The notes below the pieces were generated by a model that saw nothing but the letters and a program-made list of their open reading frames with translations, was not told where the DNA came from and did no database searches. Shown in pieces: positions 3,479-20,288 of a stretch of 20,293 bases of DNA. The position numbers and the translations under genes are program-made. How positions within the stretch are numbered: position 1 is the stretch's first letter; each line of letters begins with the position of its first letter. The stretch comes from a virus: IMG/VR virus record IMGVR_UViG_3300027970_000172, positions 1 to 20,293 of that record. One strand, written 5' to 3'.

Positions 3479-4948
3479 CTACAACCGAAACTGCACGGCC
3501 GCGGCAAAGACGCGGAACTGGTTGACCAGGTTGGGCGGCAACAACGCATTCACCCGGTTCGGATCGCTGCCGCTACGCACCACCTGCAAGCCCTCGGCGA
3601 AGCCGGCCGCATCCTCCACCAAGCCGGCCTCCTCCAGATCCCGGAACAGCGCAATGAGCTCGGCGCGGATCAGCCGCGGCGTCGCAATCGCCTGTCCCGG
3701 CCCGAAGCGCGTGCCGTCATCGGCCAACTTGTGGCGCGGAAAGCGGGTGGCGATGCGCGCGCGCACCGCATAGCGGATGTAATCGGCCGTCCACTTGGTC
3801 TCCAAGTCCAGCAGCGCGGTATCGGCCACCCCGCCGGGCGTCCCCTGATAGGTGGTGATCACCCGCTCCAGGTAGGCCACCCCATCCGCGCCATAGATCA
3901 CCGTCGAGATGCCGTGATGCAGCAGCAGATCGCGCTCGGTACGGCTAAAGCGCTGCTCGACCGCCGGCGCCAGGAACCCCGGCAGGGCGAGTGATTGCAG
4001 CGGCCGGGCCGGATCGATCGACCCGTAATACTCACAGACCCCGGCCCAGGCCGCCGCCGCCTCGGCCGGCAGCGACGGCGAGCCGGCGGTGCCGAGCAGG
4101 CTCAGATGCGGCGAGTTGCGCGCATCCCCCAGCGCGATCAGTGCCGCGTGGGTGCCCGACACCGCGGCGAACCCATGGCCGGTGCGCTGCTCCAGCGGTC
4201 CCCAGCGCGAGTCCAGTTCGCTCTCCAAGGCTGCCAGATTGGTCGCATCGGTCCACGGCATCACCAGCGTGTAGAAGGGTTCCCCGGCGATTGCCGCCAG
4301 CGCATCCGTCACCGACGGATTTCCGGTACCGGAAACTCCAGCGGCCACCACCACCGTCAACCCGGCCGGCAGCGCCTCGCCCACCGCATACCCGATGCGC
4401 AGATCAATCCCGTTGCCGACCTCGCCCTTGTGGCGTGCCGTCACCGTCACCACCCCGGCGGCGGCGCTCGCCGTCACCGGCAGATCGCTCTGGCCATTGA
4501 TCGCCGCGGCCAGCGCCGTCGCGGTCGTCGCCACGGCTTGCCCGGTATCCACCGCCACCGCCAGCCGGGTGCCGGCCACCCACAGCGCCAGAGTTCCCGG
4601 CCCCGTCGACACCGTGCTCACCGTCACCGTCCAGGTGGCCGCCACCCCGCCGGCCCCATCCTCCAAGGCCACCGCCCACACCTCGCGATACTGGCCCGGC
4701 CCGGCGAACAGCGCCGCGCCCATCCGCGCCAGCATCGACCCGCGGCCGAAGTAGGTCTCGGCCTGGGCCGCGCGGGTGATCATCGTCGGCACCTCGGCCG
4801 CCACCGTGCCGGTCGCCAGCCGCTGACCCATCAGCAGGATGCGCCGATCCGGGATCGGCAGGCCGCCGACCGCGCGCGACGCATCGATCTCGATGTACTG
4901 CCCCGGCGTGCGCAGATCTAAAGGAATGTTCAGGCTCAGATCGCCCAT
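3479..4948 (-). CDS. L: Mu L-like contractile tail sheath protein
   Basis: A 489-residue sheath subunit. It begins with IPLDLRTPGQYIEIDASRA (family IPxxxRxPGxYxEID), then LPIPDRRILLMGQR and the AETYFGRGSMLARMGAALF segment at about 63-81. Strong family signatures follow: PFYTLVMPWTDATNLAALE (about 227-245), RDLLLHHGISTVIYGADGVAYLERVITTY (about 341-369), DIETKWTADYIRYAVRAR-like sequence near 382-399, and the C-terminal DPNRVNALLPPNLVNQFRVFAA. Presence of a sheath shows the particle has a contractile, myovirus-type tail. The length is normal. It starts 3 nt after the DUF2635 gene; its TAG is merged with the Shine-Dalgarno of the next gene. Confidence 0.95.
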   Translation of the reverse strand: MGDLSLNIPLDLRTPGQYIEIDASRAVGGLPIPDRRILLMGQRLATGTVAAEVPTMITRAAQAETYFGRGSMLARMGAALFAGPGQYREVWAVALEDGAGGVAATWTVTVSTVSTGPGTLALWVAGTRLAVAVDTGQAVATTATALAAAINGQSDLPVTASAAAGVVTVTARHKGEVGNGIDLRIGYAVGEALPAGLTVVVAAGVSGTGNPSVTDALAAIAGEPFYTLVMPWTDATNLAALESELDSRWGPLEQRTGHGFAAVSGTHAALIALGDARNSPHLSLLGTAGSPSLPAEAAAAWAGVCEYYGSIDPARPLQSLALPGFLAPAVEQRFSRTERDLLLHHGISTVIYGADGVAYLERVITTYQGTPGGVADTALLDLETKWTADYIRYAVRARIATRFPRHKLADDGTRFGPGQAIATPRLIRAELIALFRDLEEAGLVEDAAGFAEGLQVVRSGSDPNRVNALLPPNLVNQFRVFAAAVQFRL

Positions 4949-4951
4949 CGC

Positions 4952-5149
4952 TTAACCCTCTTTGGTGTCTTTGACCGGGCGCGGCGCGGCGCTCGGCGCC
5001 GCGCCCAGCACGATCGCCCCGGCTTTGAGATGGCGCTGCCAGTAGCTCGACCACTCCACCGTCTCGCCCGCCGCCGCCAGTGCGCGGCCATGCGGGTGCA
5101 GCACCCGGTGCGCGGGGTCGCCGCTGGGGCGAATGAATTGCGTCGTCAT
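4952..5149 (-). CDS. Mu gp38-like DUF2635 small tail protein
   Basis: A 65-residue protein just before the tail sheath, the usual DUF2635 position in Mu-like phages. Family features are FIRPSGDPAHRVLHPHGRALAAAGETV followed by WSSYWQRHLKAGAIVL (family: SxYWxRRLxDGDV). The ATG at 5149 is chosen because GAGGGATC lies just upstream and because the family starts with a short run before the FV/FI-RP motif; a longer in-frame start at 5257 would run into the spike gene and looks non-coding. Its function in tail assembly is unknown. It ends 3 nt before L. Confidence 0.8.
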   Translation of the reverse strand: MTTQFIRPSGDPAHRVLHPHGRALAAAGETVEWSSYWQRHLKAGAIVLGAAPSAAPRPVKDTKEG

Positions 5150-5160
5150 CGTCAGATCCC

Positions 5161-7848
5161 TCACCACAGTTTGTTGGGCTGCACATAGACCCAGCGCCCG
5201 CCGGGGATGCAGACATATAAGAAGGTATCGTCCCAGGCGTGCTGGCCTTCGATGCAAGTCTCCCCAGGGGCGGTCGGCGCAGCGGCGTACTGATACTGCC
5301 AGTCGAAGGCCGCCCCCGGCGCCCGGCGCAACGTCAGCAGTTCCGGCGCATGGGGCGGGATCGGCTCATGCGGGGTGACGGCAAACGTCACCGCCGCCCC
5401 ATCGCCGCCCTCGTGAAAGGCGCGCAGCGTCAGGGTGTAGCGCGTGCTGTTGGTCAGCCCGGCCAACACCAGTGGCGAGGCCGTGCCGGTCACACTGGCG
5501 CCGCCCGGTGTGGCGTCGATGCGATACCCCAAGAGCGGCAAGCCGCCGGTGTTGGTCGGCGGCACAAAGGCGACTTCGACCTGGGCATTGCCCTCGATCA
5601 CACTCACCCCGGTCGGCACCGCGGCCGGGCCGAAGGGGATCAGCACGCCCGAGGCCGTCGACCACGGCGACTGCCCCGCGCTACTGAGCGCCATCACGCG
5701 AAACTGGTACGACAACCCGGTCTCCAGGCCGGCGACCGTGCCCTCCACACCGCCCTCCAGCGCCTCAGTGAGGTAGGACCGATACGACAGGGCCGGGTAG
5801 TTCGACCAGTTCACCGCATCGGTCAGCTTGTACTCCACGGCGTAGTTCTCGATCACGCTGCCGACCGGCTCCAGCCAGCCCAGCTTGATGCTCACCGGGG
5901 TCGTGCTGCGCAACGTCGGCGCGGCCGGACTGCTCGGGATCGCCTGGATGTCGATCGCGCCGATGTCCTCGCCGTCCAGGCCGCTGCCGTCCAGATCCAG
6001 ATTCAGCGGGGTGAAGGCGTTGCGCAGGTAGTTCAGCGCCGACTGCACCACGTAGGAGGGCTTGAACACCTCGCCCGGCACGTTCTGGTTGCGCTTCTTG
6101 AACTCCTCCAGCGCCCGCGTCTCGCTGCCCAGCTCGTCGCCTTGCAGGTAGCTGTCCATGGTCGCGACGCGGGCCAGCTTGTTCTTGAAGCGCGGATCGC
6201 CCTCGCGATCGAACTTGCCGAACCCCTCGCTGACGCCTTCGGTCAGCAGATCGGACAGCACGCGGTACTTCACATAGTCGCCGCCGTTGTCGTTCCACCA
6301 CCAGGTGTAGTCGACGTACTTGAGCAGGTCGGCATAGTGCGAGCCGAGCCAGAAATTCTGATCCGAATAGCCGTAGTTGAGCGAGGCGGCGGAGTCGGCC
6401 ACCAGGTTGTTGGCGAACCGCAGATCGCCGTTGTGGTAGCTGGTCTCGCCGTTCCAGTACATCGCCCCCGGTGTGGTGCCGGCGCCTTGCGAGTAGAGGG
6501 TGTTGCGGCGCACCAGCACCTGGCAGTTCACGCTCTCCGGGTCGATGATGTCGCGGGTGCTGCCGCTGATCGACAGGCCGGCATTGACCGCCGTGCCCCG
6601 GCCCAGAAACAGGTTACGGGTCACCTCCACATCGGAGTGCCCCAGCATGATGATGTCGGCACCGCCGTCGGCGATGTCGAACACATTGTCATACACATAG
6701 TCCCACGGCCCTTCGCACACCGGGGTACCGACCCCGCGCAGCTTGATGATGTGGCTGTTGCTGCGCTGGGCCAGAAACAGATTGTCGTGCAGCTTCACGC
6801 CGCAGTACGACTGGAGTTCGGCGCCGGTAATCAGCACGTTCTGCGTGTAGAAGAACAGATTGTGGTGGATATCGTAGATGTCCGGGCCGATGCATAGCCC
6901 CGTGTTGGTCATGTAGATGCTGACCACATCCTGGAACACGTTATTCTGGATATCCCAGGTGCCACCCATCGAATTGAATTGGATTTGCCCGACCTCCTCG
7001 TTGCCGTAGGGGGTCCACCACACCACATTGCCCCAAAACCGCTGGTCGGTGCCCGGCTGGTGACTGACCTGGCGGCGGATGACGAGGTTGCCGTACACCC
7101 CCTTCGCCAACGGGTTCTGCCCGGAGAACCGAAAGTCGTTGTTGGTGATGCGCACGCCGGTCGCGCCTTGCATGTAGATGCCGAAGTCCAGGTAGCCGGT
7201 ACCGGCGAACAGGCAGTGATCGATCCACAGGCGCGCGATGTTGGTGCCCTTGAGCGGCAACACGATGCTGCCGTCCAGGTCGAAATCGGCATAGGCCCAT
7301 TGGATTTCCTCTTCCTGGCTGTTGGCGTTGCTGTTACCGGTGGCAATCCCGCTGCTGGCGGTGCGCCCGCGCACCACCGCCCGGTTGGTCGCGGTGCCGG
7401 CGATGATCCAACTGACCTCGCTGAGCACGGCGCCGCCGCTGGCCACGCCGCCGACGCGGTAGCTGTTGGCGATCACGATCCCGCCCGGCCCCTGATTGAG
7501 CCGGGCGAAGTTGTAGAGATACAGATCGTCGGTGACAGTGAGGGTCTGATTGGTGACACTGAGCGTCTGCCAGCCGCCGATGGTCGCGCCGCGCAGTTCC
7601 AGGCGCTGCACCGTCACCGGCACATCGACAATCACCGTCGCACCCCCGGTCGAGGCCAGGATCACCTCGTCATCCGCCGTCGGCACCGTCCCGGTATCCC
7701 ACAGCGTGGGGTCGGACCAATTGCCGCCGCCGTTCTTGGTCATCGTCACCGTGGCCGCCGCCGCCGGGTTGAGCCACAGCAGCCACGCCAGCACCAGCGC
7801 GGTCAGTCCCACCGGGATCAGCAACAGTCGTTTCACGTCGGCACCCAT
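5161..7848 (-). CDS. Large right-handed beta-helix protein with signal peptide-like N-terminus and two FN3 domains (tailspike-like)
   Basis: An 895-residue protein. Residues 5-32 (VKRLLLIPVGLTALVLAWLLWLNPAAAA) look like a Sec signal peptide with an A-x-A-type cleavage site. Residues about 190-490 carry repeated N-N/H-x-F turns (ITNNDF, IQNNVF, HHNLFF, HDNLFL, YDNVF, TRNLFL, RRNTLY, ANNLV), typical of a parallel beta-helix of the pectate lyase/NosD kind. Residues about 490-635 are helical and acidic, ending DLDGSGLDGEDIGAID. Two fibronectin type III domains follow (about 640-738 and 744-828). The C-terminus AWDDTFLYVCIPGGRW is a fibre-tip motif. The ATG at 7848 overlaps the previous gene by 16 nt; GTG at 7836 would give MKRLLL and a 4-nt GTGA overlap and is equally likely. 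A signal peptide is unusual for a virion spike. Polysaccharide binding or cleavage is inferred; catalytic residues are not identified. Confidence 0.8.
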   Translation of the reverse strand: MGADVKRLLLIPVGLTALVLAWLLWLNPAAAATVTMTKNGGGNWSDPTLWDTGTVPTADDEVILASTGGATVIVDVPVTVQRLELRGATIGGWQTLSVTNQTLTVTDDLYLYNFARLNQGPGGIVIANSYRVGGVASGGAVLSEVSWIIAGTATNRAVVRGRTASSGIATGNSNANSQEEEIQWAYADFDLDGSIVLPLKGTNIARLWIDHCLFAGTGYLDFGIYMQGATGVRITNNDFRFSGQNPLAKGVYGNLVIRRQVSHQPGTDQRFWGNVVWWTPYGNEEVGQIQFNSMGGTWDIQNNVFQDVVSIYMTNTGLCIGPDIYDIHHNLFFYTQNVLITGAELQSYCGVKLHDNLFLAQRSNSHIIKLRGVGTPVCEGPWDYVYDNVFDIADGGADIIMLGHSDVEVTRNLFLGRGTAVNAGLSISGSTRDIIDPESVNCQVLVRRNTLYSQGAGTTPGAMYWNGETSYHNGDLRFANNLVADSAASLNYGYSDQNFWLGSHYADLLKYVDYTWWWNDNGGDYVKYRVLSDLLTEGVSEGFGKFDREGDPRFKNKLARVATMDSYLQGDELGSETRALEEFKKRNQNVPGEVFKPSYVVQSALNYLRNAFTPLNLDLDGSGLDGEDIGAIDIQAIPSSPAAPTLRSTTPVSIKLGWLEPVGSVIENYAVEYKLTDAVNWSNYPALSYRSYLTEALEGGVEGTVAGLETGLSYQFRVMALSSAGQSPWSTASGVLIPFGPAAVPTGVSVIEGNAQVEVAFVPPTNTGGLPLLGYRIDATPGGASVTGTASPLVLAGLTNSTRYTLTLRAFHEGGDGAAVTFAVTPHEPIPPHAPELLTLRRAPGAAFDWQYQYAAAPTAPGETCIEGQHAWDDTFLYVCIPGGRWVYVQPNKLW

Positions 7849-8468
7849 TGGTTGTCAATCACCTGCAACAGCGCGCCAGCCGGCGCATCGCCCACCGCCG
7901 GCCAGGCCGCCGCGCTCGGCCGCCCGGTCGTCGGCACCCACCCGCCCGCCGTCTCCACCATCCACACGCCGTCACGCACCGTCACCATGGCCCCATCCGG
8001 CAGCCCGGCCGGGTCCGGAAACGGGTCACCGCCCGGCAGCGTGCCCACCGCGGCCCAGCCGGCGGCCGTCGTCACCGCCCAGGCGCCATCGCGCACCGCC
8101 AGCAGCGCCCCCTGCGGCAGCCCGGCCGCCGCCGGCAGCAGCGCCTGCCCGGCGGGCGCCGCGACGCTGGCCACCGCCGTCCATAACCCGCTGATCGCCG
8201 CCACCGTGCCGGGCGCGCGCACCGTGGCGCCCAGCTCATCGGCCAGCGCCGGCCGCGGGCCGTCCGCCGCCGGCGCGACCAGCGCCGTGCGCAACACCGT
8301 ACCGCCAGGCGCCAGGCGCACCGGCGCCAACACCTGCGGACCGGCCGCCGCCGGCCCGACCCGCACCGGCACCCGCGGGGCCGGCGGCCACACCCGGATG
8401 ACGCCGGTCATGGGCTGGCGGTACAGCACGTACTGCGGAGTCTGCCCGCGCAACTGCAAACTCTTCAT
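7833..8468 (-). CDS. Repeat protein in the adhesin cluster, function unknown
   Basis: A 211-residue protein I do not recognise as a whole. The N-terminus (LRGQTPQYVLYRQPMTGVIRVW) is basic and beta-like. The C-terminal half has three diverged repeats of about 35-40 residues: AGLPQGALLAVRDGAWAVTTAAGW (115-138), AGLPDGAMVTVRDGVWMVETAGGW (154-177) and GDAPAGALLQVIDNQWVP (193-210). Each has P-x-G-A-x-x-x-V-x-D/N-x-x-W, a layout common in short phage fibre modules. I see no signal peptide, membrane segment or catalytic motif. The ATG at 8468 overlaps the gp37-like stop as ATGA. Its TGA overlaps the following beta-helix gene. It may serve as an adapter for that protein. Confidence 0.65.
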   Translation of the reverse strand: MKSLQLRGQTPQYVLYRQPMTGVIRVWPPAPRVPVRVGPAAAGPQVLAPVRLAPGGTVLRTALVAPAADGPRPALADELGATVRAPGTVAAISGLWTAVASVAAPAGQALLPAAAGLPQGALLAVRDGAWAVTTAAGWAAVGTLPGGDPFPDPAGLPDGAMVTVRDGVWMVETAGGWVPTTGRPSAAAWPAVGDAPAGALLQVIDNQWVPT

Positions 8469-9073
8469 GGTGCAAACGCGTCCGGCGGCACCCGCACCAG
8501 CGTCACCCCGGCCTCGGTCGTGCCATCGGCCGGCGCCAGATCCAGGTCCGCGGCAAAGTGGGCGAACTCGGCCAGGTTGTCCGGCAGCGTCTCCGCCAGG
8601 TCGTGCGTCAACGCCACCTGCACCTCCACCAGCGTGGCGGCCAGTTCTGTCAGTGCCGTGCCCTCCAGCGGCGCCAGCCCGGTCACCGTCAGCGTGCCGA
8701 TGCCAAGCAGCGTGTGATCGTGCAGCGCCACCGCGACCGCCTCCGCCAACGCCAAGGCGCCCGGCGCCGCCGCGGTGCCGCGCCGCCGCACCAACTCCCC
8801 GGCGCTCGCCTGAGTCAGCACCACCAGCGACCAGGAGGAGGTGAAGCGCGCCCCCGGCGGGCCTTCCACGCGGCCGTCGCGGATGCGGTCGGGCGGGCGG
8901 GCACTGCCGCGCCACACCGCCAGCACGCAGGGCGGCTTGGCGCCGTGCGCGGCCAGCACCGCGGCCAATTCCCCGAAGCCGCCGGGCAGCGGCACATAGG
9001 CGCGCAGCAGCGGCCCCAGCAGTTGCGCGGCGCGGGCCAGCAAGCGGTCTTCGATGTCGACTAAGACACTCAT
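8465..9073 (-). CDS. Mu gp37-like neck/tail terminator-type protein (DUF1834)
   Basis: A 202-residue protein of the Mu gp37/DUF1834 type. It begins MSVLVDIEDRLLARA, followed by YVPLPGGFGEL. The middle has a Trp-containing beta strand (VLAVWRGSARPPD) and FTSSWSLVVLTQ, then a long helix (GALALAEAVAVALHDHTLLGIGTLTVTGLAPLE) that fits the family. In Mu this gene directly follows gp36 and precedes gp38; here adhesin-like genes flank it on both sides. The ATG at 9073 lies 3 nt after the glycine-rich gene stop. Its stop overlaps the following gene as ATGA. A head-tail joining role is taken from position and family. Confidence 0.78.
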   Translation of the reverse strand: MSVLVDIEDRLLARAAQLLGPLLRAYVPLPGGFGELAAVLAAHGAKPPCVLAVWRGSARPPDRIRDGRVEGPPGARFTSSWSLVVLTQASAGELVRRRGTAAAPGALALAEAVAVALHDHTLLGIGTLTVTGLAPLEGTALTELAATLVEVQVALTHDLAETLPDNLAEFAHFAADLDLAPADGTTEAGVTLVRVPPDAFAP

Positions 9074-9076
9074 CGG

Positions 9077-10087
9077 CTAGATCCCGTCGATCGCCACGCG
9101 GCCGGCCCCGCCGGCCCCGCCGGCCCCCGGCAGCGCCGGACTGATCGCCGCGCCGCCGCCGCCGCCGCCGCCGCCGCCCGCTCCGCCGGCCCCGCCGGCC
9201 CCGCCGTTGGCGCTGAGGCTCGACCCCCCGCCGCCGCCGCCGCCGCCGCCGGCATCCACAAAGGGCGTCGCCAGCACCGCACTGCCGCCCGCCGTGCCGG
9301 CGACCCCGACATCGCCATAGGCGCCGCCCGCAATCACCGGCTGATCGCTGCCATCAGTGAGGACATACTGCGCCGCGGCGCGGCCGACATTGCCGCGGTA
9401 CGCCGTTGGCGCGGTCGCCAGACCGCCGCCGGCACCGGCGCCGCCGCTGGCCAGGCCGACACCGTAATTGCCGGTATTGCCGACCGCCCCGCTGGCCCCG
9501 GACCCGCCCATCCCGCCGGTGAACACCGCGGCCCCGGCCGCCCCGGCCGCGGCGATGCCGGTCGCACCGGCCCCGCCGCCGCCGCCGCCGCCGGCCCGCC
9601 AGGTGCCGACTTTCGAGGCCCCGCCGGCGCCGCCCGCCCCCGCGGTGCCGCCCGCGCCGCCGGCCCCGACACTCCACGCCAGCGTCGCCGGCAGCGTCTC
9701 CCAGGGCACCACGATCTGGGTCCACCCCCCGCCGCCGCCCCCGCCGCCGCCCGACACCGCGGTGCCGGCCGCGCCCAGGGCATAGCCCCGACCGCCGCCG
9801 CCGCCGCCGCCGCTCAGCGTGATGATGGCGGTCCGGTACGCGCCGGCCGGCTTGGTCCAGGTGCCGCTGCCGCTGGATTGCTCCCAGTGATAGGGCGCGT
9901 CGAGCGCGCCCGCGGGGCCGGGCGGCCCCTCGGGTCCTGCCGGCCCTGCCGGCCCATCCGGACCCGCCGGTCCCGGAATCAACGTGCCCTGCTCGGCCAC
10001 CAGCACCCACCGCGCGCCGGTCCACTCCAGCATCCGCTGGCCGACGTTAAGGCGGTCGCCTGGTTGGGGATTGGCTGGCAGGTCCAT
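9077..10087 (-). CDS. Glycine-rich phage fibre/adhesin with collagen-like neck
   Basis: A 336-residue protein. Residues 1-32 have a GDRLNVGQRMLEWTGARWVLV module (P-x-x-GD and W-x-G-x-x-W) typical of phage fibre starts. Residues 39-60 are about seven Gly-Pro-X triplets. From 70 the sequence is a glycine-rich domain: WTKPAGAYRTAIITLSGGGGGGG, then repeated runs of 7-9 Gly separated by beta-forming segments, ending GRVAIDGI. The W-x-x-P-A-G-x(5)-I-x-L-x-GGGGGG pattern is a known layout of glycine-rich tail-fibre proteins. Polyglycine sandwiches also form the receptor-binding tip of the T4/S16 gp38 type adhesins, though homology to those is not claimed. It starts 3 nt after the previous stop, inside the neck gene region. 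Confidence 0.8.
   Translation of the reverse strand: MDLPANPQPGDRLNVGQRMLEWTGARWVLVAEQGTLIPGPAGPDGPAGPAGPEGPPGPAGALDAPYHWEQSSGSGTWTKPAGAYRTAIITLSGGGGGGGRGYALGAAGTAVSGGGGGGGGGWTQIVVPWETLPATLAWSVGAGGAGGTAGAGGAGGASKVGTWRAGGGGGGGAGATGIAAAGAAGAAVFTGGMGGSGASGAVGNTGNYGVGLASGGAGAGGGLATAPTAYRGNVGRAAAQYVLTDGSDQPVIAGGAYGDVGVAGTAGGSAVLATPFVDAGGGGGGGGGSSLSANGGAGGAGGAGGGGGGGGGAAISPALPGAGGAGGAGRVAIDGI
9152..9178. repeat. GCC trinucleotide repeat coding for polyglycine (one of several)
   Basis: Nine uninterrupted GCC units on the plus strand code nine Gly on the minus strand. Similar GCC runs occur at about 9230-9250, 9573-9595, 9733-9750 and 9792-9811 within the same gene. All are in frame, so slipped-strand gain or loss would alter the length of the polyglycine segments without breaking the gene. 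They are GC-only repeats and may be prone to sequencing error. Confidence 0.85.
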
Positions 10088-10090
10088 CGC

Positions 10091-11491
10091 TTAGCTCTGC
10101 GGCCGCACGAGGATGGCGGCGTCGTAGGCCGGCACGATGACCTCGGTCAGCACGGCGCCGTTATTCACATCGTCCTGGGTGCCCGCAATGCGCTGGAACG
10201 TGCCGCCCAGCGCGATCGTGCGGCTGGTGGGCGTGGCATTCACCACCACCACCGCCTTGGCGAAGTCGCGGCGGAACACGTCCGCATTGGCCGCGAACAG
10301 CATGATCCGATCCATGTTGATCGTGCTGGTAAACATCGCGCCCACATCCAAGCGTAGTTGCACCGTCTCACTGGCCGTGCTGGTGAAGGTCCAGAGCAAT
10401 TTGTTCCAGCCCGGTCCGCAGAACAAGCCGCCGCTGATCTGGCTGCCGAAACGGGGGAACAGCAGCCCTTCGCGCTCCGCGTACACCGCGAGCGACAGCG
10501 TATATTGGCGACCGGCAGTCAACGTCACGCTCGGCCCCAAGATAAACGCCGCATCGTTGGTCTGCCGCGCGTCGGCCGTGATCACCGCCCGCAGCGAGGC
10601 GCTGCCCTCGATCGCCCGCGTGGTGTCGCGGCTGAGCACCGCGCGCGTGGGCGTGGCCTCGATCACGTGCAGCCGATCGGCATAGGCCCGCACGAACCCA
10701 CGGTTATATTGGTGTTCGGCGTGCGCGGTGCCGAGCGCCAGCGTGATCGTGATCGCCGGGGGATTGCTCCAGTCATAGGTCAGCAGGCTGCCTTGGATCA
10801 CCGGCGCCACCAGCGGATTGCCGCGACTGATCAGCGTGCTCTGATCGCCGAAGCCCACGGCGGCCGGCCCCCCCACGCTGACGATGGCCTGCCCATAGAG
10901 CACGGCCGTGGCCGCGCCCGCCCGAATCAGTTGCAGCTCGATGATCATGGGCCGCTGCGAGGCGTGCGCATTGATGTTGCTCACATCGTCCTGGAACACC
11001 ACGGTGCCGCCGAGCGCGATCGACAGGGTGAATTGCGAGGTCGCACCCGCCGCGGTGGTGTTGAAATAGCTGCCGACACAGAGGATCGTGACCGCCTCGC
11101 CGACCGTGGGGGCCACCCCTGTCGGCGGTGTGATGGACGCGATAACGGTCGGCGCGGTGCTGTTGACGATCGGCAGGGCCGCGGTCAGCAACGTCGCATA
11201 GGGCGGGGGCAGCGTGCGCAAATTGGCCCCGCCCACAGGGTCCAGCTCACCCTGTGCGTCGGCGTGCAACAGCTTCAGATCGGCGATGTTCTGCCAGGTC
11301 ACCGCGGCGCGCGCAATGCTGGCCGTTGCCGCATCAGCAAACGCTGAGACCGGCTCGAACGCGGCACTGTTCAGACCCAGCGCCGTCTGCTGGTCGATCA
11401 CGTTCTCTTGCACCGCCAGCGCATAGCCGGCCGCTTTCACCGGGGCCGCGGCCCCGGTGTCCGGGTCGATCAAGCCAAGTTTGTCTGCCAT
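10091..11491 (-). CDS. Beta-rich virion-associated protein with carbohydrate-binding-like segment
   Basis: A 466-residue protein with no catalytic motif that I recognise. Residues 1-95 are helical and could be an attachment domain (MADKLGLIDPDTG, then Ala-rich helices). Residues about 110-270 are a beta-sandwich-like region. Residues about 285-400 resemble a CBM4/9-type or galactose-binding-like sandwich: GSASLRAVITADARQTNDAAF, then LTAGRQYTLSLAVYAE, then WNKLLWTFTSTASETVQLRL and a closing MDRIMLFA. The last 50 residues (VVVNATPTSRTIALGG, VNNGAVLTEVIVP, DAAILVRP) resemble the small C-terminal sandwich of some glycoside-hydrolase-like proteins, but no hydrolase domain precedes it. The start has GGAG overlapping the upstream TAG. 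Sugar binding on the host surface is an inference. Confidence 0.6.
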   Translation of the reverse strand: MADKLGLIDPDTGAAAPVKAAGYALAVQENVIDQQTALGLNSAAFEPVSAFADAATASIARAAVTWQNIADLKLLHADAQGELDPVGGANLRTLPPPYATLLTAALPIVNSTAPTVIASITPPTGVAPTVGEAVTILCVGSYFNTTAAGATSQFTLSIALGGTVVFQDDVSNINAHASQRPMIIELQLIRAGAATAVLYGQAIVSVGGPAAVGFGDQSTLISRGNPLVAPVIQGSLLTYDWSNPPAITITLALGTAHAEHQYNRGFVRAYADRLHVIEATPTRAVLSRDTTRAIEGSASLRAVITADARQTNDAAFILGPSVTLTAGRQYTLSLAVYAEREGLLFPRFGSQISGGLFCGPGWNKLLWTFTSTASETVQLRLDVGAMFTSTINMDRIMLFAANADVFRRDFAKAVVVVNATPTSRTIALGGTFQRIAGTQDDVNNGAVLTEVIVPAYDAAILVRPQS

Positions 11492-11503
11492 CCGGCGGCG
11501 CTC

Positions 11504-12238
11504 CTAAAACGTAAATTCCGCCGCGGCCCGAACCCAGGCCGCGCCGACATAGCGATACCAATACGGCGCGGTCCAGGCCGCCCCGCCGGGCCAACCCACC
11601 GACTGCGGCGCCAGCGCCGCGTCGCTCCAGACCGTTTCCACCGCCCAGCGAATCCACTGGGCGCTGGCCAGGCATTCATACAGATACCCCGCGACCAGGC
11701 GGATATCGCCCACCGTGCCGGGGGCGGTCGGCGTCGGCGCCCCGTCAATCGCCGGCCACATGCGCTCCGGGGCTTGGCGCATCCACACCGCGGTGCCGAC
11801 CGCGACATACCGATAGATCCCATCCCAGGCCGTCTGCCCGCGTGTGCCAGGCGCCGCACTGGTCGCCGGCACCGCGACTGCCGGGGCGAACAGGGCGGGC
11901 CAATACCACTGCGTGGGCACCCCCAACAGCAGCGCATCGGCCAGGCTGGGCAGCCACTGACCGGTCGTGGGATCGCGCACATACAGGCACAGCCCGCCGG
12001 GCACCAGCGCCGGGTCGGAGGTGTCGAACCACAGCCGATAGGCCGCGGCCGTGGGCGCGCTGAGGCCGACCCATACCGCGCTCGCGCCGGTGTCGGCATA
12101 GGCCCCGGCGGCCGTGCCGACCGCCAGCACGCCCTCATCGGTGATCAAATACGGCTCGCCGGCCGCCAGGGCGTTCGCCGCCGCCGCCGCCGCGAGCTGG
12201 GCGCGCGTCCCGCGCTTGACCCGAATCCGCTGCGCCAT
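11504..12238 (-). CDS. Trp-rich fibre-like protein with repeated C-terminal Trp/Tyr motifs
   Basis: A 244-residue protein. The N-terminus (IRVKRGTRAQ then LAAGEPYLITDEGVLAVGTAAGAY, about 24-47) carries the same attachment-type motif as the previous gene (EP-x-x-x-TD-x-G-x-L), so the two are likely distant paralogues or share a module. From residue 55 the protein is a series of Trp/Tyr-rich units: LCLYVRDPTTGQWLP (84-97), AWDGIYRYVAVGTAVWMR (137-154), VAGYLYECLASAQWIRW (182-198) and APYWYRYVGAAWVR (224-237). This motif also closes the large beta-helix protein of this cluster. Such units look like small beta modules at the tips of phage appendages. It starts 6 nt after the previous stop. Confidence 0.7.
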   Translation of the reverse strand: MAQRIRVKRGTRAQLAAAAAANALAAGEPYLITDEGVLAVGTAAGAYADTGASAVWVGLSAPTAAAYRLWFDTSDPALVPGGLCLYVRDPTTGQWLPSLADALLLGVPTQWYWPALFAPAVAVPATSAAPGTRGQTAWDGIYRYVAVGTAVWMRQAPERMWPAIDGAPTPTAPGTVGDIRLVAGYLYECLASAQWIRWAVETVWSDAALAPQSVGWPGGAAWTAPYWYRYVGAAWVRAAAEFTF

Positions 12239-12244
12239 GATGGG

Positions 12245-12697
12245 CTAGAAGGTCCCGCCGTCGATCACATCCACCGCCAACGCCATGAACGCATTGCCCG
12301 CATCCTTGGTCAGGGCGATCGAGGCCGAGCCGCGCAGCACGCCGTCGCTGCCGTCGGTGCCCCACAGATAGCCGGCCGTCCCGCCGGCCACCGCGGCCAC
12401 CTTCTCATCGGTCGAGCTGGCCGGGATGTTGAGCGCCGTCTTGAACGCGTTGACGGTGATCTTGGTCTCTTTCTGGCCGGCGCCCGAAGCATCGTGGATC
12501 AGCAGGAAGTCGGCGGCCCCATCGACCGCGGGGATGGTGGCCAGATCGTCGAGCGCCGGCACCACCGGGATCCGCGTGGTGCCCCCGGTGGCCAGGTGCA
12601 GCGTGCCGCGGTCGGTCGTGACCAGCGGCTCGCGCGCCAACAGGCTGCTGTTCGGCAGTGCGGACTTGAGGCCGCCGCGCAGTTGAATACGTGCCAT
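12245..12697 (-). CDS. Short phage fibre-like protein (N-terminal attachment motif, IDGGTF end)
   Basis: A 150-residue protein. Its N-terminus (LLAREPLVTTDRGTLHLATGGTTRIP, residues about 19-44) has the L-x-x-x-E-P-L/Y-x-x-T-D-x-G-x-L pattern seen at the start of many phage fibre and tropism proteins, where it docks to the particle. The middle (ADFLLIHDASGAGQKETKITVNAFKTAL, about 61-88) is a short segment common in phage fibres. The end is ALAVDVIDGGTF. A clear GAGGA lies upstream of the ATG in an 18-nt spacer. It is much shorter than a full receptor-binding fibre, so it may be an adapter or head fibre. I cannot assign a receptor. Confidence 0.7.
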   Translation of the reverse strand: MARIQLRGGLKSALPNSSLLAREPLVTTDRGTLHLATGGTTRIPVVPALDDLATIPAVDGAADFLLIHDASGAGQKETKITVNAFKTALNIPASSTDEKVAAVAGGTAGYLWGTDGSDGVLRGSASIALTKDAGNAFMALAVDVIDGGTF

Positions 12698-12715
12698 GAA
12701 TCAGGTCCTCATCAA

Positions 12716-13228
12716 TCAGAAAACGCCGCCGTCGATTGCCCCAATCAGGTTCTCAGCAGCGAACACGTCGGCGCGCACGCCGCGCGGGTCGTAGAGCACC
12801 GCCTGCATGTCCCCGTCCGCGCCGGGCGGCCCCATCGGCCCGGCGGCCCCGGCCGGCCCGGCCGGCCCCATCGGCCCCGCCGGCCCCTGCGGCCCGGTGG
12901 CCAGCGGGGCTGCCGCCACCAGCGCGCGCAGCTCCTGCACCTGCGCGCTGTCGGGCACCTCGATGCGATAGCGCGTGGTGTAGCGCGGGGTGGCGAGCTC
13001 GATCGCGTAATAACTCGGCGCCCCCTCCGGCAGCGCCAGCCCCGCGTTGGGCGGCAGGTCCACCAGCGCATCCGCCGTCAGGTCGCGGCGGACCAGCACG
13101 TGGCGCAGCGCCTCCTGCGCGAAGCCCAGCACTGGCGCCCCGGCCGCATCGACCAGGCTGATCTTCAAGCTGACCGGCCCCAACTCGCCGGGCGCGGCGG
13201 CCGGATACGGGATGCGCACCTGTGTCAT
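12716..13228 (-). CDS. Collagen-like phage fibre or head/neck appendage protein
   Basis: A 170-residue protein. Residues 1-95 are beta-rich (VRIPYPAAAPGELGPVSLKI, APSYYAIELATPRYTTRYRI). A short helix at 95-108 leads into about nine Gly-X-Y triplets at 112-139, rich in Gly-Pro-Ala and Gly-Pro-Met. This can form a collagen-like triple helix, as in many trimeric phage fibres. The C-terminus (VLYDPRGVRADVFAAENLIG) ends in AIDGGVF, much like the VIDGGTF end of the next gene. It begins 9 nt after the gp36-like stop. It may be a trimeric spacer or adapter for the downstream fibre proteins. Receptor or partner is unknown. Confidence 0.75.
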   Translation of the reverse strand: MTQVRIPYPAAAPGELGPVSLKISLVDAAGAPVLGFAQEALRHVLVRRDLTADALVDLPPNAGLALPEGAPSYYAIELATPRYTTRYRIEVPDSAQVQELRALVAAAPLATGPQGPAGPMGPAGPAGAAGPMGPPGADGDMQAVLYDPRGVRADVFAAENLIGAIDGGVF

Positions 13229-13237
13229 GGGCGCGGC

Positions 13238-13669
13238 CTACAGCACCCGGCCCAAGGCCGCCCGCGTCAGCGGCTGGTCGCCGACCCAGGCGCGCGCACT
13301 GCCGGCGCGCTCCGGCGCCACCGCACCGCCCGGCTCCGGCGGGCGCGGGTCCAGCCGCCCCTCGGCGATGTCGAGCAGGCGCCGCATCGCCGCGCGGCCG
13401 GCCTCCTCGATCTCCAGCGTGCGCGCCAAGCCCACCGCCAGGCGGTCGATCACCAGATCCACGGCGATCATCCCGAGCAACGGCGCGGCCGTGCCGACCG
13501 CGCTCGGCCAGCGGCCGACCAAGGCGCCGTCGATCAGCGCGTCGACCTCCAGGATGGTCGCGGCCACCCGCGCCGGGTCCTCGGCGCCATCGGCATCGGC
13601 GTCGCCGTAGGCTTCCAGCGGCAGGGTGCCGCGGCGGTTGGCCACCGCCTCACGGGTGGTGTAGCTCAT
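13238..13669 (-). CDS. Mu gp36-like neck protein (DUF1320)
   Basis: A 143-residue protein in the position of Mu gp36, directly after T. It starts MSYTTREAV, has a DPARVAATILEVDALIDGALVGRWP stretch (about 33-57) followed by a Pro-containing turn and long helices with LVIDRLAVGLARTLEIEEAGRAAMRRLLDIAEGR, as in DUF1320 head-tail connector proteins. The conserved early Asp/Ala/Ile/Asp helix and the Trp-Pro after it support the family. The ATG at 13669 is chosen over an upstream in-frame ATG (13729) because the latter would extend 60 nt into T; the chosen start is 1 nt after the T stop. In Mu the next gene would be gp37; here five extra genes intervene. Confidence 0.82.
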   Translation of the reverse strand: MSYTTREAVANRRGTLPLEAYGDADADGAEDPARVAATILEVDALIDGALVGRWPSAVGTAAPLLGMIAVDLVIDRLAVGLARTLEIEEAGRAAMRRLLDIAEGRLDPRPPEPGGAVAPERAGSARAWVGDQPLTRAALGRVL

Positions 13670-13670
13670 C

Positions 13671-14591
13671 TCAGCCGGCGCCGGTCGAGGCCCAGGCGAG
13701 CTGCGGGAAGCTATAGCCCACCACCGCATCGGCTTCGATCGAGAACAGGAACTCGCCGGTCATCACCACGTGCGAGTCATTCGGATCGGTGACCTGCGCG
13801 GTGGTCGGCGCCTGACGCTGCAACAGCACCAAGGCGCGCATGCCCCCGGCCTCGCCCAGCAGATACCACGCGGTCTCGCTGGTCAGTTCCTCCCACATCA
13901 CCACCGTGATGCGGCCCTTGTAGGGGTTCGGCTTGCCGTCCTCCAGCCGATCGTTCATCGCCAACACCATGGCCACGTCTTCCAGCGCCGGCGGCACCAG
14001 CAGCACGATGTTGCGCACCCGCACCGGCCGGCCCTGGTCGTTCTTCATCGTGCGCAGCGCCTTGAGCCCCGCGCCCAGGCTGGCAATGGCCGCCGCCTGG
14101 GTGGCCGCGCTCAGCACCACCGTGCCCTTGTTGCTGTAAGTCGCCGCTTTGCCGTTCTTGCCCGTGGTCGGATGGTCGGTGGCGAAGAACGGCTTGCCGT
14201 CAAAGCACAGGCCGGTAAAGGCCTCGTTGAGCGCGGCCCCGGCCAGCTCGTCGGGGAAGTACGCGGCCAATTCGCCCTGGCCGGTCGCCTTGGTGCGATA
14301 GATGCCCAGCCGATCAGCTTCCAGATCGCGCTTCTTCACCCCGATGGTCGACTCGTAGGGCTCGCAGGTCAGGCTGTAAGTGAACCCGGCCAGCGCGTTG
14401 ACCACCTTGTCGCCGACCCACTTGCGCCAGTTGGGCAAGCTGCCAACCCAGTCCATCGCCTCGGTGATCTGCGCCGTGTTGATGGTGGTGGTGAACCGCC
14501 CGTACTGGGTTTCGGTCGCTTCCAGCGACGCGTTGAAGGTCGCCCGGATGTTCCGGAAGACCTCCTCGATATTGGTTTTGTTGATGATCAT
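13671..14591 (-). CDS. T: Mu T-like major capsid protein
   Basis: A 306-residue major head subunit of the Mu gpT family. It starts MIINKTNIEEVFRNIR, has LPNWRKWVGDKVVNALAGF-type sequence at about 52-70, the KKRDLEADRLGIY segment at about 86-98, the FFATDHPTTGK segment at about 134-144, a KNDQGRPVRVRNIVLLVPPALE segment at about 183-204, and a C-terminal GEFLFSIEADAVVGYSFPQLAW-type ending. The length is normal for the family. The ATG at 14591 lies 9 nt after the decoration gene, with GGACC just upstream. It is the core of the head module and is expected to be the most abundant virion protein. Confidence 0.95.
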   Translation of the reverse strand: MIINKTNIEEVFRNIRATFNASLEATETQYGRFTTTINTAQITEAMDWVGSLPNWRKWVGDKVVNALAGFTYSLTCEPYESTIGVKKRDLEADRLGIYRTKATGQGELAAYFPDELAGAALNEAFTGLCFDGKPFFATDHPTTGKNGKAATYSNKGTVVLSAATQAAAIASLGAGLKALRTMKNDQGRPVRVRNIVLLVPPALEDVAMVLAMNDRLEDGKPNPYKGRITVVMWEELTSETAWYLLGEAGGMRALVLLQRQAPTTAQVTDPNDSHVVMTGEFLFSIEADAVVGYSFPQLAWASTGAG

Positions 14592-14600
14592 CGGATGGTC

Positions 14601-15365
14601 CTACGCGTGCGGAGTGACAAGCAGCACCACGGTGCTGGTCGAGGTCGCGGTCGAGGCCCCGCCGCCGGTCACCGACAGCACGTCCCCGGCGGCAAAGGTC
14701 GCCGCGGCGCTGGGCACACAGGTGTCCACATCGCCGGCGGCCGAACTGGCTTGCGTCACCGTCATCACGCCATCGGTCACTGCCGTGGCGCCGATCTTCA
14801 GTGTCAGCGTGGCATCGCCGCCGGCCAGCGCCGCGTTGAGCACGGTGAAGCCCTTGCTGATGGTCCCGGCGAACGGTGCCACCCAGCGCAGCACCGCGGC
14901 GTCGGCCGCCGTGTTGCTCAGGGCCCCGAAGGTGATCGCCTGGGCGCGCGCGGGCGGGGTCCAGCCCACCGCCACCCACACCCACTGCGCATCCACGTTC
15001 ACGATCTGGCCGGCCGCCGAGCGCGTACCGGCTTGGCGCTTGGCCACCGTCTGATCGTCGACGATCCACGCCAGCTCGCCGATGTCGGCCTTGGTGATCG
15101 CATCGGCCGCCGCCGCGTTTTCGAACGCGAACACCCCGGCGTCATAGTCGACGGTGAGCGCCGCCGCCGCGCCCGCATTGACCGCCCGGTCCATAAACAC
15201 GCCGACCGCGGTCAGCCCCAGCGCGGTCGACCCCGGCACCAGGTTGCCGGCCGCATCGCGGCAGGCCAGACCGCCTTCGAAACAGGTGGTCGCCGCGGCC
15301 ACCGGGCCGTTGAACGAACCGCCGGCAATGCGCGGCGCATTGCGGCCTTGAGTCAGCGCAGTCAT
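14601..15365 (-). CDS. Mu-like head decoration/cement-like protein with added C-terminal beta domain
   Basis: A 254-residue protein between I and T. Residues 1-135 follow the pattern of a small protein often found here in Mu-like phages: MTALTQGRNAPR start, PVAAATTCFEGGLACRDAAG (21-40), FMDRAVNAG (57-65), a VFAFENAAAAD segment, then ADIGELAWIVDDQTVAK (93-109) and a closing VNVDAQWVWVAVG. That family is usually only about this long. Residues 140-252 form a second, beta-rich unit (AITFGALSNTAADAAVLRWV, APFAGTISKGFTVLNAALAG, GDVDTCVPSAAATFAAGDVL) like domains found on other phage surface proteins. The fused form would expose an extra domain on the capsid. It starts in an ATGA overlap with I and ends 9 nt before T. 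Role as capsid decoration is inferred from position and family. Confidence 0.78.
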   Translation of the reverse strand: MTALTQGRNAPRIAGGSFNGPVAAATTCFEGGLACRDAAGNLVPGSTALGLTAVGVFMDRAVNAGAAAALTVDYDAGVFAFENAAAADAITKADIGELAWIVDDQTVAKRQAGTRSAAGQIVNVDAQWVWVAVGWTPPARAQAITFGALSNTAADAAVLRWVAPFAGTISKGFTVLNAALAGGDATLTLKIGATAVTDGVMTVTQASSAAGDVDTCVPSAAATFAAGDVLSVTGGGASTATSTSTVVLLVTPHA

Positions 15366-15862
15366 GCCGATGCTCCGTATTTCGCCAGCAGTTCAGGCGC
15401 GTTACCGAACGCGTCCATGATGGCCCGCTGCTCGGCATTGAGTTCCGCCGCACCCTGCGGCGGCTTCACCGTCCGGGTCTCTGGGTCCAGCACCGCGGGC
15501 GCGGCGGCGAGGAACGCGGTCAACCGCTCCAGCCCGCCCGCCGACTGCGCCTGCGCCCGGTGATACTCCACCGTGGGCGGCGTGATGCGCGCCTCGCGCA
15601 GACCGCGCTCCAGGAGCGCATCGATCTGCCGGTTGAGCTCTGCCGCTTGCGCGGTGCGCAACGCGGTTTCGGCCGCCGCCGCGCGGTTGATTGCGGTGTC
15701 GTAATCCGCGCGGGGGACAAAGCGCGACAGGTCCGGGGTCGCCGTACGCAGGGCATTGAGCTCAGTCTGCAAGGCGCTCACGGCCGCGACCGCGGTCGCC
15801 GCGTCAGCGTCCGCCGGCAGCGCCAGCGCGTGCGCCAAAGGCGCGGGGAGGAGGTCCGGCAT
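15362..15862 (-). other. Possible internal in-frame start producing a Z-like scaffold protein
   Basis: In Mu the scaffold protein Z is translated from an internal start inside gene I. Here Met174 of the I-like protein (ATG at 15862) falls at the junction between the protease domain and the helical C-terminal half, directly after PALNSENST. Starting there would give a 166-residue Ala/Leu-rich, coiled-coil-like protein. The sequence upstream (GCGAGAACTCCACT) has only a weak purine-rich GAGAA. Position and domain boundary fit; the ribosome binding site does not prove it. Confidence 0.35.
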
Positions 15863-16381
15863 AGTGGAGTTCTCGCTATTGAGCGCCGGCAACTGGCGCA
15901 GATTCGGTTTGTTGGTCAGCCCGACCGAGCTGAGCCCCGTGATCGAGCGATCCGCGGCGACGTAATACGCAGGGGAGTAGTAGCGGTAACCGCGCGACTG
16001 CACCGAGTCGGCGCCCTGGGCATTCCAGGCCACCGCCGCGGTCATGCCCTCGGGGTCGGCACGGAAATCCGACAGCCAGGCCGCGGCATCGGCGCGTTGC
16101 CCCAGCGGGGCCAGCAATTCGGTAGCGTGCTCCCAGTCCACCGGCAGATCGGCGCCCGTGGCATTGAGCGCCGCCGCCAACGCCGGCGGATCGTCCAGCC
16201 GGTAGCGTCGGCCGTCGCGCCCCACAAAGGGGCCGGCCGGCGCCAGCAACAACCGGGCCGGCGGTGCGCCATCGACCAGCGGCAGCTCACGACAGCATTC
16301 GGCTTGCATCACCACTGGCCCCCCGGCCGGATTGCCGGGGGGGAGAGGCGCGTGCTTGGGGGGATGGGTGGGGTGCGACAT
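15362..16381 (-). CDS. I: Mu I-like prohead protease with scaffold-like C-terminal half
   Basis: A 339-residue member of the Mu gpI family, the prohead maturation protease. Features are LLLAPAGPFVGRDGRRY at 44-60 (family LLPAGxFxGRDGR), DLPVDWEHATE at 78-88 with His85 a candidate catalytic residue, RGYRYYSPAYY at 130-140, and GLSSVGLTNKPNL at 149-161 with Ser151/152 a candidate nucleophile. Residues about 175-339 are Ala/Leu/Arg-rich and helical, like the scaffold half that in Mu is also made separately as Z. The ATG at 16381 lacks a clear Shine-Dalgarno. Met25 (16309) follows GGGGG and is a good alternative start nearer the conserved fold. The stop overlaps the next gene as ATGA. Confidence 0.88.
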   Translation of the reverse strand: MSHPTHPPKHAPLPPGNPAGGPVVMQAECCRELPLVDGAPPARLLLAPAGPFVGRDGRRYRLDDPPALAAALNATGADLPVDWEHATELLAPLGQRADAAAWLSDFRADPEGMTAAVAWNAQGADSVQSRGYRYYSPAYYVAADRSITGLSSVGLTNKPNLRQLPALNSENSTMPDLLPAPLAHALALPADADAATAVAAVSALQTELNALRTATPDLSRFVPRADYDTAINRAAAAETALRTAQAAELNRQIDALLERGLREARITPPTVEYHRAQAQSAGGLERLTAFLAAAPAVLDPETRTVKPPQGAAELNAEQRAIMDAFGNAPELLAKYGASA

Positions 16382-16569
16382 GGGCGCATGGTGCGCGCGC
16401 TGTCCGGTCGGGGCGACTAACGCCCTTTATTGCGCTGCCGTGCCCGCGCGCGACAGCGGCGCTAGGAAGGCCGTAGACGGCCCGCCGGCAAAACCGCTCC
16501 GATGGTACCCCGAGCGGCTGTCGCGGGCTGCTAGCTAGGTGCGCAACACGTGCGCACCATGGTCAGGCG
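16382..16569 (-). promoter_or_regulatory. Non-coding gap between G and I with several dyads; candidate late promoter region (P_I-like)
   Basis: I see no credible gene in these 188 bases. It is one of only two sizeable gaps in the minus-strand operon. It holds GGTGCGCA-N5-TGCGCACC (16538-16558, perfect 8-bp arms), CTAGCTAG next to it (16531-16538), GGCCGT-AG-ACGGCC (16469-16482), CCGCTC-N12-GAGCGG (16494-16517) and GGGCG-N5-CGCCC (16411-16425). In Mu the C-activated late promoter P_I lies just upstream of gene I, which is this position. A weak -10-like TACCAT reads on the minus strand at 16507-16502, with no -35 match, as expected for an activator-dependent promoter. No start site can be proven from sequence. 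Confidence 0.4.
16538..16558. repeat. Perfect 8-bp inverted repeat, candidate activator/operator site
   Basis: GGTGCGCA and TGCGCACC flank the 5-base spacer ACACG. The arm centres are 13 bp apart, close to one helical turn, which suits a dimeric regulator. There is no T-run on either side, so an intrinsic terminator for G is unlikely. It lies about 157 nt upstream of gene I. Binding by a Mor/C-type activator is an inference from position only. Confidence 0.5.
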
Positions 16570-17118
16570 CTAGGGGCGCAGATAGTCCTCAAGAATTTCG
16601 ATGATCCGCGTCCGATCCTCGTCGGAGATGCCCAAAAACGGCCGCGGCGGGATCGGCGCCGGGGCGCCGCCGGGGGTGTTGTAAAAGCGGTTGGCCGGGT
16701 TGCCGAACTGCTGCACCGCGCCATACACCCGGTTGGTGCCGACCTCCACCCCATGGCCGCCGTCGATCAACTGCCGGGCGATGGTGTCGGCCAGGATGCC
16801 GCTCTGGGTCAGCACCTTCTGCACCCCCACCGCGCGGCGTCCGCGCGCGCTCAGGCCCCCGGACTTGGTCACGTTGCTCTTCTTGCCCATGATCACCCCG
16901 AGCTTACGCGCCAGGGTGACCGCGCTGTTGGGCGCCCACTTGGCGCCGTCCGGGCCGCTCTCGGTCTCAAAGCGCTGGCGCGTGCTCTTCCACAGCACTT
17001 CGCCGATCTCCTCCAGCGCCGGGGCCGGGTGGCGGCACTTACGGATGAGCTGCGCCAGCTTGGCGCGCAGTTCGGCGTCGTCGACCTTGACCTCGAGGTG
17101 GAGACCGGCGCCGGCCAT
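16570..17118 (-). CDS. G: Mu G-like virion morphogenesis / tail completion protein
   Basis: A 182-residue member of the phage virion morphogenesis family (Mu gpG, P2 gpS type), which acts in joining heads and tails. Visible family features are an N-terminal helical region, RFETESGPDGAKWAPNS at about 53-69 (the typical RF-x(4)-PDG-x-KW segment), an LTQSGILADTI segment at about 103-113, a VGTNRVYGAVQQFG segment at about 126-139, and a Pro-rich PPRPFLGISDED near the C-terminus. The length is usual for the family. The ATG at 17118 has GGGAG about 8 nt upstream. It lies directly after F, as in Mu, and before a 188-nt non-coding gap. Confidence 0.9.
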   Translation of the reverse strand: MAGAGLHLEVKVDDAELRAKLAQLIRKCRHPAPALEEIGEVLWKSTRQRFETESGPDGAKWAPNSAVTLARKLGVIMGKKSNVTKSGGLSARGRRAVGVQKVLTQSGILADTIARQLIDGGHGVEVGTNRVYGAVQQFGNPANRFYNTPGGAPAPIPPRPFLGISDEDRTRIIEILEDYLRP

Positions 17119-18559: not shown

Positions 18560-19304
18560 CGTGGTCCTCCGCCGGCCGCGTGCCGGCGGCGGCGATGACC
18601 CCGCGCCCCAGCAGCGCCGCCACCTGCGTCAGGCCCGCGGGAACGGACCGGGCGGCGGCCACGGCGCGCAGGTCGGCCGTCACCCCCAACGCGGCGAGGC
18701 TGGCGTCCAGCCCGGCCAACTGCACGCCGAGCGCGGGGTCCGGATGCGCCTGATACAGGGCGGCCACGGTGCGCCGTTCGGCCAGTAGCTCGCGGACCTC
18801 GGCCGCGCGCGCGGCGGCCGGATCGGCGCTGGCCGGCTCGCCGGACAGCGGCTGATCCTCCCAGCGCCGTTCACTGAGCCAGCCTTCGGGGTACTTGCGC
18901 ACCGCATCGGCCGGCCGCGGGGTCGCCGCGTCCTGCGCGGCGGCCTTGATGATGCGCTGCCTCAAAGCCGCATCGGCCGCCAGTTCCGCCCAGCGGGCGG
19001 CGGCGCGCTGCTTGCCCTTCAGCACCCCATAGACCTGATAGAAGCGGTCGAAGTCGGCCGCCTGCTCGGGACTGAGGGCGGCCCGGTGATCGACGGTAGA
19101 CCGGGTCTTGGCGACGCGCGCGGTGTCGGCGGCCGGGCGGCTGTCGGCGGTGTAGCCGGCGACGGTGAGCCGGTCATAGAGCGCGGCGGCGTGGCGGATG
19201 GCGGCGTCCAGATCCAGCTTGGCGCCGGGCTCGGCACGGCTGGCTTGCACCAACAGCAACGTCGGGGCGTGGTCGCGGATGTAGCGGGCGCGGGGGTCGG
19301 TCAT
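18549..19304 (-). CDS. Protein with phage replication-protein-like C-terminal motif
   Basis: A 251-residue protein with no clear enzyme motif. Residues about 84-150 (DFDRFYQVYG, then a K/R and Ala/Trp helix, then KYPEGWLSERRWED) match the layout often found at the C-terminus of phage replication/primosomal proteins: FDxFWxxYPxK followed by FPxxWLNxxRWxD. Residues 151-251 are Ala-rich, probably helical, and unlike anything I recognise. The N-terminal 80 residues are charged and helical. I see no helicase P-loop or clear helix-turn-helix. The ATG at 19304 overlaps the methyltransferase stop as ATGA, and the TGA overlaps the F-like gene by 11 nt, so the gene is part of the late transcript. That position is odd for a replication protein. 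It may have another role, such as packaging or DNA binding. Confidence 0.6.
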   Translation of the reverse strand: MTDPRARYIRDHAPTLLLVQASRAEPGAKLDLDAAIRHAAALYDRLTVAGYTADSRPAADTARVAKTRSTVDHRAALSPEQAADFDRFYQVYGVLKGKQRAAARWAELAADAALRQRIIKAAAQDAATPRPADAVRKYPEGWLSERRWEDQPLSGEPASADPAAARAAEVRELLAERRTVAALYQAHPDPALGVQLAGLDASLAALGVTADLRAVAAARSVPAGLTQVAALLGRGVIAAAGTRPAEDHDAA

Positions 19305-20095: not shown

Positions 20096-20288
20096 GACGC
20101 GCCACCCACAACGGCGCATTCGCCCCACCGCACGGCTGGCCGTCGCGGATCGCCTCGCGCCAGGGGGTCGGCACCCCATAGGCCGGATGGGTGCACGCCG
20201 ATTGGCCGCCCCGCTCGCTGAAATGCCGACACCAAAAGCAGGCCCGCGCGTGCGTATGCCGCCGCGGCGGCACCGTGTCTTTTCCCAC
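20088..20288 (-). CDS. Small four-cysteine, probably zinc-binding phage protein (start uncertain, at window edge)
   Basis: A 66-residue frame with Cys17-x2-Cys20, Cys32 and Cys53, plus His23 beside the first pair. This spacing suggests one structural zinc site. The pattern (CxxCxHF early, then a Pro/Arg stretch and a late QPCG followed by an aromatic) resembles small uncharacterised zinc-ribbon-like proteins seen in phage accessory regions, but I cannot name a family or function. The start used is GTG; the window ends 5 bases upstream, so a longer N-terminus is possible. Its TGA overlaps the methyltransferase ATG by 8 nt, which ties it to that operon. An overlapping 106-residue frame on the same strand has no recognisable feature and is treated as a shadow. 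Confidence 0.6.
   Translation of the reverse strand: MGKDTVPPRRHTHARACFWCRHFSERGGQSACTHPAYGVPTPWREAIRDGQPCGGANAPLWVARHG

Follow-up and report, generated by a model that had tools for sequence, protein, structure and literature searches.

Within the Mu-like phage considered here, seven tightly packed genes, A to G, are interposed among the connector genes, A to E separating gp36 from gp37 and F and G separating gp37 from gp38. On balance, they probably constitute a mobile adhesin cassette set in the connector block, the products of which would be accessory head or neck fibres binding the exopolysaccharide of the host; incorporation of these products into the virion, their place at the head or neck and their ligand are what we infer.

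The window, i.e., the whole stretch of DNA analysed, is a 20,293-b fragment of a virus with its structural genes on the minus strand in Mu order. The same phage is represented by a 43,808-b contig (G001), positions 18809-39101 of which are the reverse complement of the window with 9 mismatches, and by a third contig (G003), which is 99.9% identical and extends about 0.9 kb further. A sibling prophage is found in Lamprocystis purpurea DSM 4197, with 95-96% nucleotide identity to G001 across the shared part. As part of the favoured explanation, the phage host is likely to be this purple sulfur bacterium or a near relative.

Following the minus strand, on which all the genes below are encoded (window coordinates), a putative capsid-surface protein of the family phrog_1731 (14601..15365; E=3.4e-32) lies between the protease and the major head protein; this gene order suggests a decoration role, and no solved structure was matched by the phrog_1731 profile. 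Next come the gpT-like major head protein (13671..14591), assigned from the Mu gpT profile and synteny and 99% identical in Lamprocystis, and gp36, the head-tail adaptor (13238..13669; PF07030, E=3.3e-8; phrog_195). The first part of the island comprises (i) A (12716..13228), a fibre protein with a beta N-terminal part, a short collagen stretch and a C-terminal IDGGVF, (ii) B (12245..12697), a 150-aa Mtd_N protein (PF18454, E=6.6e-7), (iii) C (11504..12238), an Mtd_N protein (PF18454, E=6e-5; phrog_17312, tail protein) with Trp-rich short repeats and presumed to be a fibre or tip, (iv) D (10091..11491), a putative adhesin with an N-terminal phage beta part, the C-terminal portion of which shows homology to host GHL15-CBM_4_9 proteins, and (v) E (9077..10087), with a tail-collar-like N-terminus, a collagen stretch and a long glycine-rich region (phrog_863, phrog_3449). 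Beyond gp37, the tail terminator (8465..9073; PF08873, E=2e-6; phrog_490, E=2.9e-13; role as in Mu, PMC11915804), are F (7833..8468), a short-repeat (GAxxxVxxxxW) protein whose homologue adjoins the G homologue in another phage, G002, and G (5161..7848), with a Sec-signal-like start, a WSDPxLW N-terminal domain, a presumed parallel beta-helix, FN3 (fn3, E=1e-14) and a C-terminal YVC..W motif. They are followed by gp38 (DUF2635; 4952..5149; PF10948; phrog_208) and the tail sheath gpL (3479..4948). For gp36 and gp38, the open reading frame list starts too far upstream, and the starts used here agree with the neighbouring genes. As such, a Mu-like structural block is present, in the order T-36-37-38-L-M and with recognisable families. 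Island genes are spaced by 3-18 b, with overlaps of 4 b between gp37 and F and 16 b between F and G, and no promoter- or terminator-like sites were found in the island above the expectation from shuffled sequences; as a further part of the favoured explanation, it is probably transcribed together with the genes for head and tail. The Mu connector consists of gp29-gp36-gp37, with gp36 as adaptor and gp37 as tail terminator (PMC11915804), and the island is thus placed exactly within the connector block.

The preliminary description had counted five fibre-like genes between gp36 and gp37 and two between gp37 and gp38, an order that is confirmed and for which the gaps fall far outside those of 48 relatives. 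The relatives were found by means of the sheath, Mu-protein profiles being run across loci with related sheaths; once copies of this phage and duplicates had been removed, 48 loci gave a value for each of the two gaps, the frames being measured stop to stop. The gp36-gp37 gap amounts to 4165 b in the window against a median of 322 b in the relatives, usually enough for a gpG gene, the largest values among them being 3292 b (L083) and 1257 b (L092); the gp37-gp38 gap amounts to 3103 b against a maximum of 335 b. The gp36-gp37-gp38 region had been put forward as a possible variable hotspot, and other genes are indeed met there: in L083, a sheath relative from a Hydrogenophilales MAG, five different genes lie within the gp36-gp37 gap, and L008 carries extra genes upstream of gp37. 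The gp36-gp37 site varies among relatives, yet islands are rare. One of the L083 genes belongs to the podophage GP4 fibre I family (gp80; PF23140, E=4e-41; PDB 8jou), a family that fills the gap in this relative but is absent from the window. A description of the present gene arrangement was not found in the literature.

The usual fibre, expected beyond the end of the window, is indeed encoded downstream: a collar-domain tail fibre (PF07484, E=8e-18) directly follows gp48 in G003 and in the Lamprocystis sibling (L063). A relocated Mu-type tail-fibre set is thereby ruled out, and A to G form an additional set rather than a moved one. In this phage, a fibre gene occupies the Mu S position after gp48; the island stands upstream of the sheath, and the Mu S/U profiles find no match in it.

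Regarding the individual proteins, G has fn3 domains, E is glycine-rich and D is, by homology, carbohydrate-binding-like; the collagen of A is sub-threshold (PF01391, E=1.8e-4, below the gathering score; the phrog_5073 tail fibre match, E=1.8e-8, covers the collagen part) and the parallel beta-helix of G is presumed from NNxF-type repeats, its AlphaFold model having a pLDDT of 30. A also belongs to the cassette in L110 and L141. B is the most widespread member, with relatives in 178 viral loci, the listed ones being about 66-76% identical. The Mtd_N domain (PF18454) of B is above the cut-off and that of C borderline, i.e., under the cut-off in a plain scan and just over it in a genome search; in C, the N-terminus is conserved and the remainder variable. 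A and B, as well as a small linker gene often preceding B elsewhere, end with IDGG(V/T)F or a similar motif, which may be an assembly tag.

The Mtd_N domain of B and C is shared with Mtd of Bordetella phage, but no reverse transcriptase of a diversity-generating retroelement was found in the 43.8-kb contig of the present phage; with the L141 reverse transcriptase as query, no match was obtained in G001, which may be incomplete, or in the Lamprocystis prophage contigs. In L141 itself (15186-17067), near the A-B-C-D cassette, a reverse transcriptase (PF00078) stands behind a lectin-like open reading frame with an AAC-rich stretch (GGNWNNAAIAGAFALNANNARTNANANIGARPAL); together they look like a diversity-generating retroelement, and a template/variable repeat pair was sought on this contig and not found.

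The surroundings of B were read in about 47 contexts, with roles assigned by PHROGs on representatives and the remainder unassigned beyond the counts given here. Seven of them place the B cassette behind the major capsid gene, in most cases with adaptor, closure and terminator genes next. In 6 it is downstream of a portal gene, in 2 it comes after the gene for the major tail protein in Mu-like phages, and in 11 it precedes endolysin genes, the latter probably corresponding to the end of the tail module. Other phages have B and C flanked by the major capsid gene on one side and the head-tail adaptor gene on the other, and in L141 A-B-C-D lies directly ahead of the portal gene.

The D protein of the window has no direct Pfam match, and some match to it was found in 8 of the 142 genomes searched. 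Over the C-terminal 180 aa, it mostly shares 40-46% identity with secreted proteins of 860 aa from Lamprocystis and relatives, two of which match GHL15 (PF14885) and CBM_4_9 (PF02018), so that by homology to CBM_4_9-bearing proteins the D C-terminus is a putative carbohydrate-binding domain; the model of D is of low confidence (pLDDT 53), and its CBM22/CBM4 fold matches are only consistent with CBM folds. One Lamprocystis GHL15-CBM_4_9 copy adjoins a Wza-like export/glycosyltransferase (exopolysaccharide) cluster. Such secreted proteins, the function of which is apparently undescribed, are multi-copy in Chromatiaceae genomes, e.g., in Lamprocystis (G006: C80, C142 and C201) and in the relatives G010 and G012, with up to five matches in the genome of one relative. 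D differs from these homologues in having a phage N-terminus and no signal, and in the window allele by the absence of GHL15. In the alleles of L063, L110, G002 and L141, the middle domain of D is homologous to GHL15. In the window, ...IEATP is joined in frame to TRAVLSRD near position 10648, the GHL15 domain and the first CBM strand being absent; since half a domain is left behind, D probably lost its glycosidase domain rather than lacking it ancestrally.

The island is evidently a mobile and mosaic module. In Lamprocystis, the same island is divided between two contigs, and a further contig, which lacks gp37 and F-G, bears a second A-B-C-D-E copy. G002 is otherwise a different Mu-like phage, whose major tail protein is of the siphophage type; downstream of the gene for that protein lie D, an A-like gene, F and G. 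Between the window and Lamprocystis, G is about 80-90% identical over approximately 6300-7700, and the 400-b blocks on either side mostly reach 95-100%; where comparable, the middle of G is about 83% identical to its own sibling against 97% to G002. Synonymous divergence from the sibling reaches 0.28 in G compared with 0.007-0.10 in the other genes tested. This swap of identity, together with the raised synonymous divergence, is best read as allele exchange between phages. In the collection of named phages, D and most of G are absent, and searches with A, C, D and G returned nothing useful. A broader proposition, tentative and somewhat less likely to hold than to fail, is that a portable head/neck cassette, made of an anchor, a linker, Mtd_N proteins and exchangeable tips, moves among unrelated phages and has been inserted repeatedly into capsid-connector gene blocks. 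The version carried by phages of purple sulfur bacteria would have acquired from the host a glycosidase-CBM related to exopolysaccharide, which one phage has joined to a domain of the capsid surface, so that the head, independently of the tail fibre, could bind or degrade slime.

In the mechanism proposed, the A-G products would form accessory fibres, assembled onto the mature head or where head and tail join. Binding of the host exopolysaccharide slime would fall to D through its CBM, to the short-repeat proteins C and F, to the glycine-rich E and to G with its presumed beta-helix, before the collar-domain tail fibre encoded after gp48 engages a cell-surface receptor. The D of the window would bind slime without cutting it, and sibling alleles may also cut. 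The preliminary description had suggested head or neck appendages able to bind cells, extracellular matrix or surfaces. Binding to an animal matrix is dropped, the evidence pointing to bacterial exopolysaccharide: the FN3 matches to titin and neogenin reflect the domain and not the ligand, and phage fibres often contain collagen and FN3 stretches. Placement at the head or neck finds indirect support in the position of B and C between capsid and adaptor genes, in the L141 cassette ahead of the portal gene and in the G002 homologue of D, and the placement itself stays at the level of a suggestion. This homologue has an N-terminal phrog_1731 domain, 38% identical over 117 aa (E=2e-20) to the capsid-associated protein of G002 itself, which belongs to the same family and is encoded ahead of the major head protein; such a fusion may be taken as the nearest structural hint to the virion location.

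Gene position does not fix the place of a protein in the virion, and the B cassettes before endolysin genes, the lack of a phrog_1731 head domain in the window D and the Sec-like start of G speak against the head/neck reading. The first of these would fit a second tail-fibre set attached to the baseplate or tail despite its genes lying among connector genes, as would the B cassette of Janthinobacterium phage Donnerlittchen, which stands behind the tip attachment protein, the weak resemblance to LtfC of a neighbouring anchor-like gene family, and the many PHROG labels reading tail fibre. With an ordinary fibre already after gp48, the cassette adjoining, in many loci, genes for capsid, portal and adaptor, and a head domain on a D homologue, this is considered rather unlikely. 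That the island would be the decaying inherited baggage of a defective prophage is hardly credible: the truncation of the window D would suit it, but reading frames are intact throughout, and the deletion is in frame and recurs in the separately assembled contigs G001 and L060, with a longer D retained in the Lamprocystis sibling. All island genes are conserved relative to this sibling, and G, the only one with enough changes for a firm value, has a dN/dS of 0.24 (155 synonymous versus 128 nonsynonymous differences).

Fibres at the head or neck carrying CBM or beta-helix adhesins add avidity or slime penetration ahead of tail-fibre engagement, and host range of phages is usually read from tail fibres. 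If connector-block adhesins are indeed head- or neck-borne, host recognition in Mu-like phages and in the many phages with a B cassette would have a second, modular layer that is being overlooked; with a cultured host link (L. purpurea DSM 4197) and a shared host slime-related domain, the reading is directly testable. Among known systems, lactococcal 936 phages possess CBM-bearing neck structures, and the NPS of lactococcal 936/P335 siphophages (PMC6669499) resembles the island as an accessory, variable neck adhesin whose tips are of CBM or beta-helix/lyase-like type and which is present in addition to the true receptor-binding protein, the neck location being presumed here. It differs as a single protein with a BppU-type N-terminus in siphophages of Gram-positive bacteria, compared with seven genes in a contractile-tail Mu-like phage; the sequences are unrelated as far as tested, and no Pfam or PHROG match to a BppU-type N-terminal domain was found in A-G. 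Likewise, RcGTA bears head spikes binding capsular polysaccharide before tail-fibre engagement and optional for transfer (PMC10218006), but these are other proteins, and the placement of A-G is surmised from genes.

Finally, G, and perhaps F, may not belong to the virion but be exported by the lysogen or infected cell to act at the host surface, e.g., as an adhesin or superinfection barrier, which is deemed improbable overall but is, for G, a serious rival reading. A Sec-signal-like start is unusual on a virion protein, and the N-terminus of G (MGADVKRLLLIPVGLTALVLAWLLWLNPAAAA) is hydrophobic (KD 2.55) and Sec-signal-like as judged by eye and hydropathy, the feature being kept in G002 with altered sequence; the N-terminal domain is also of secreted-protein style. 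Against export stand the tight late-operon placement with overlaps and no promoter of its own, a C-terminal motif similar to that of C, and signal-like starts on bona fide head proteins, namely gpT of three related prophage groups, as well as on an island gene of L083 (head/fibre family), which makes such a start compatible with a virion role in this group. The gpT extensions (L035:6358-7395, L040:6618-7646 and L069:7103-8173) belong to Mu-like prophages in Nitrosovibrio, Nitrosospira and Methylophaga (L035/L066, L040/L067 and L069, respectively), and protease I of the Nitrosovibrio and Nitrosospira prophages has a signal-peptide-like extension too. Elsewhere in the head gene block of the window, a DNA methyltransferase-like gene with a DPFVGSGTT motif (19301-20179) is located upstream of the gpF-like gene.
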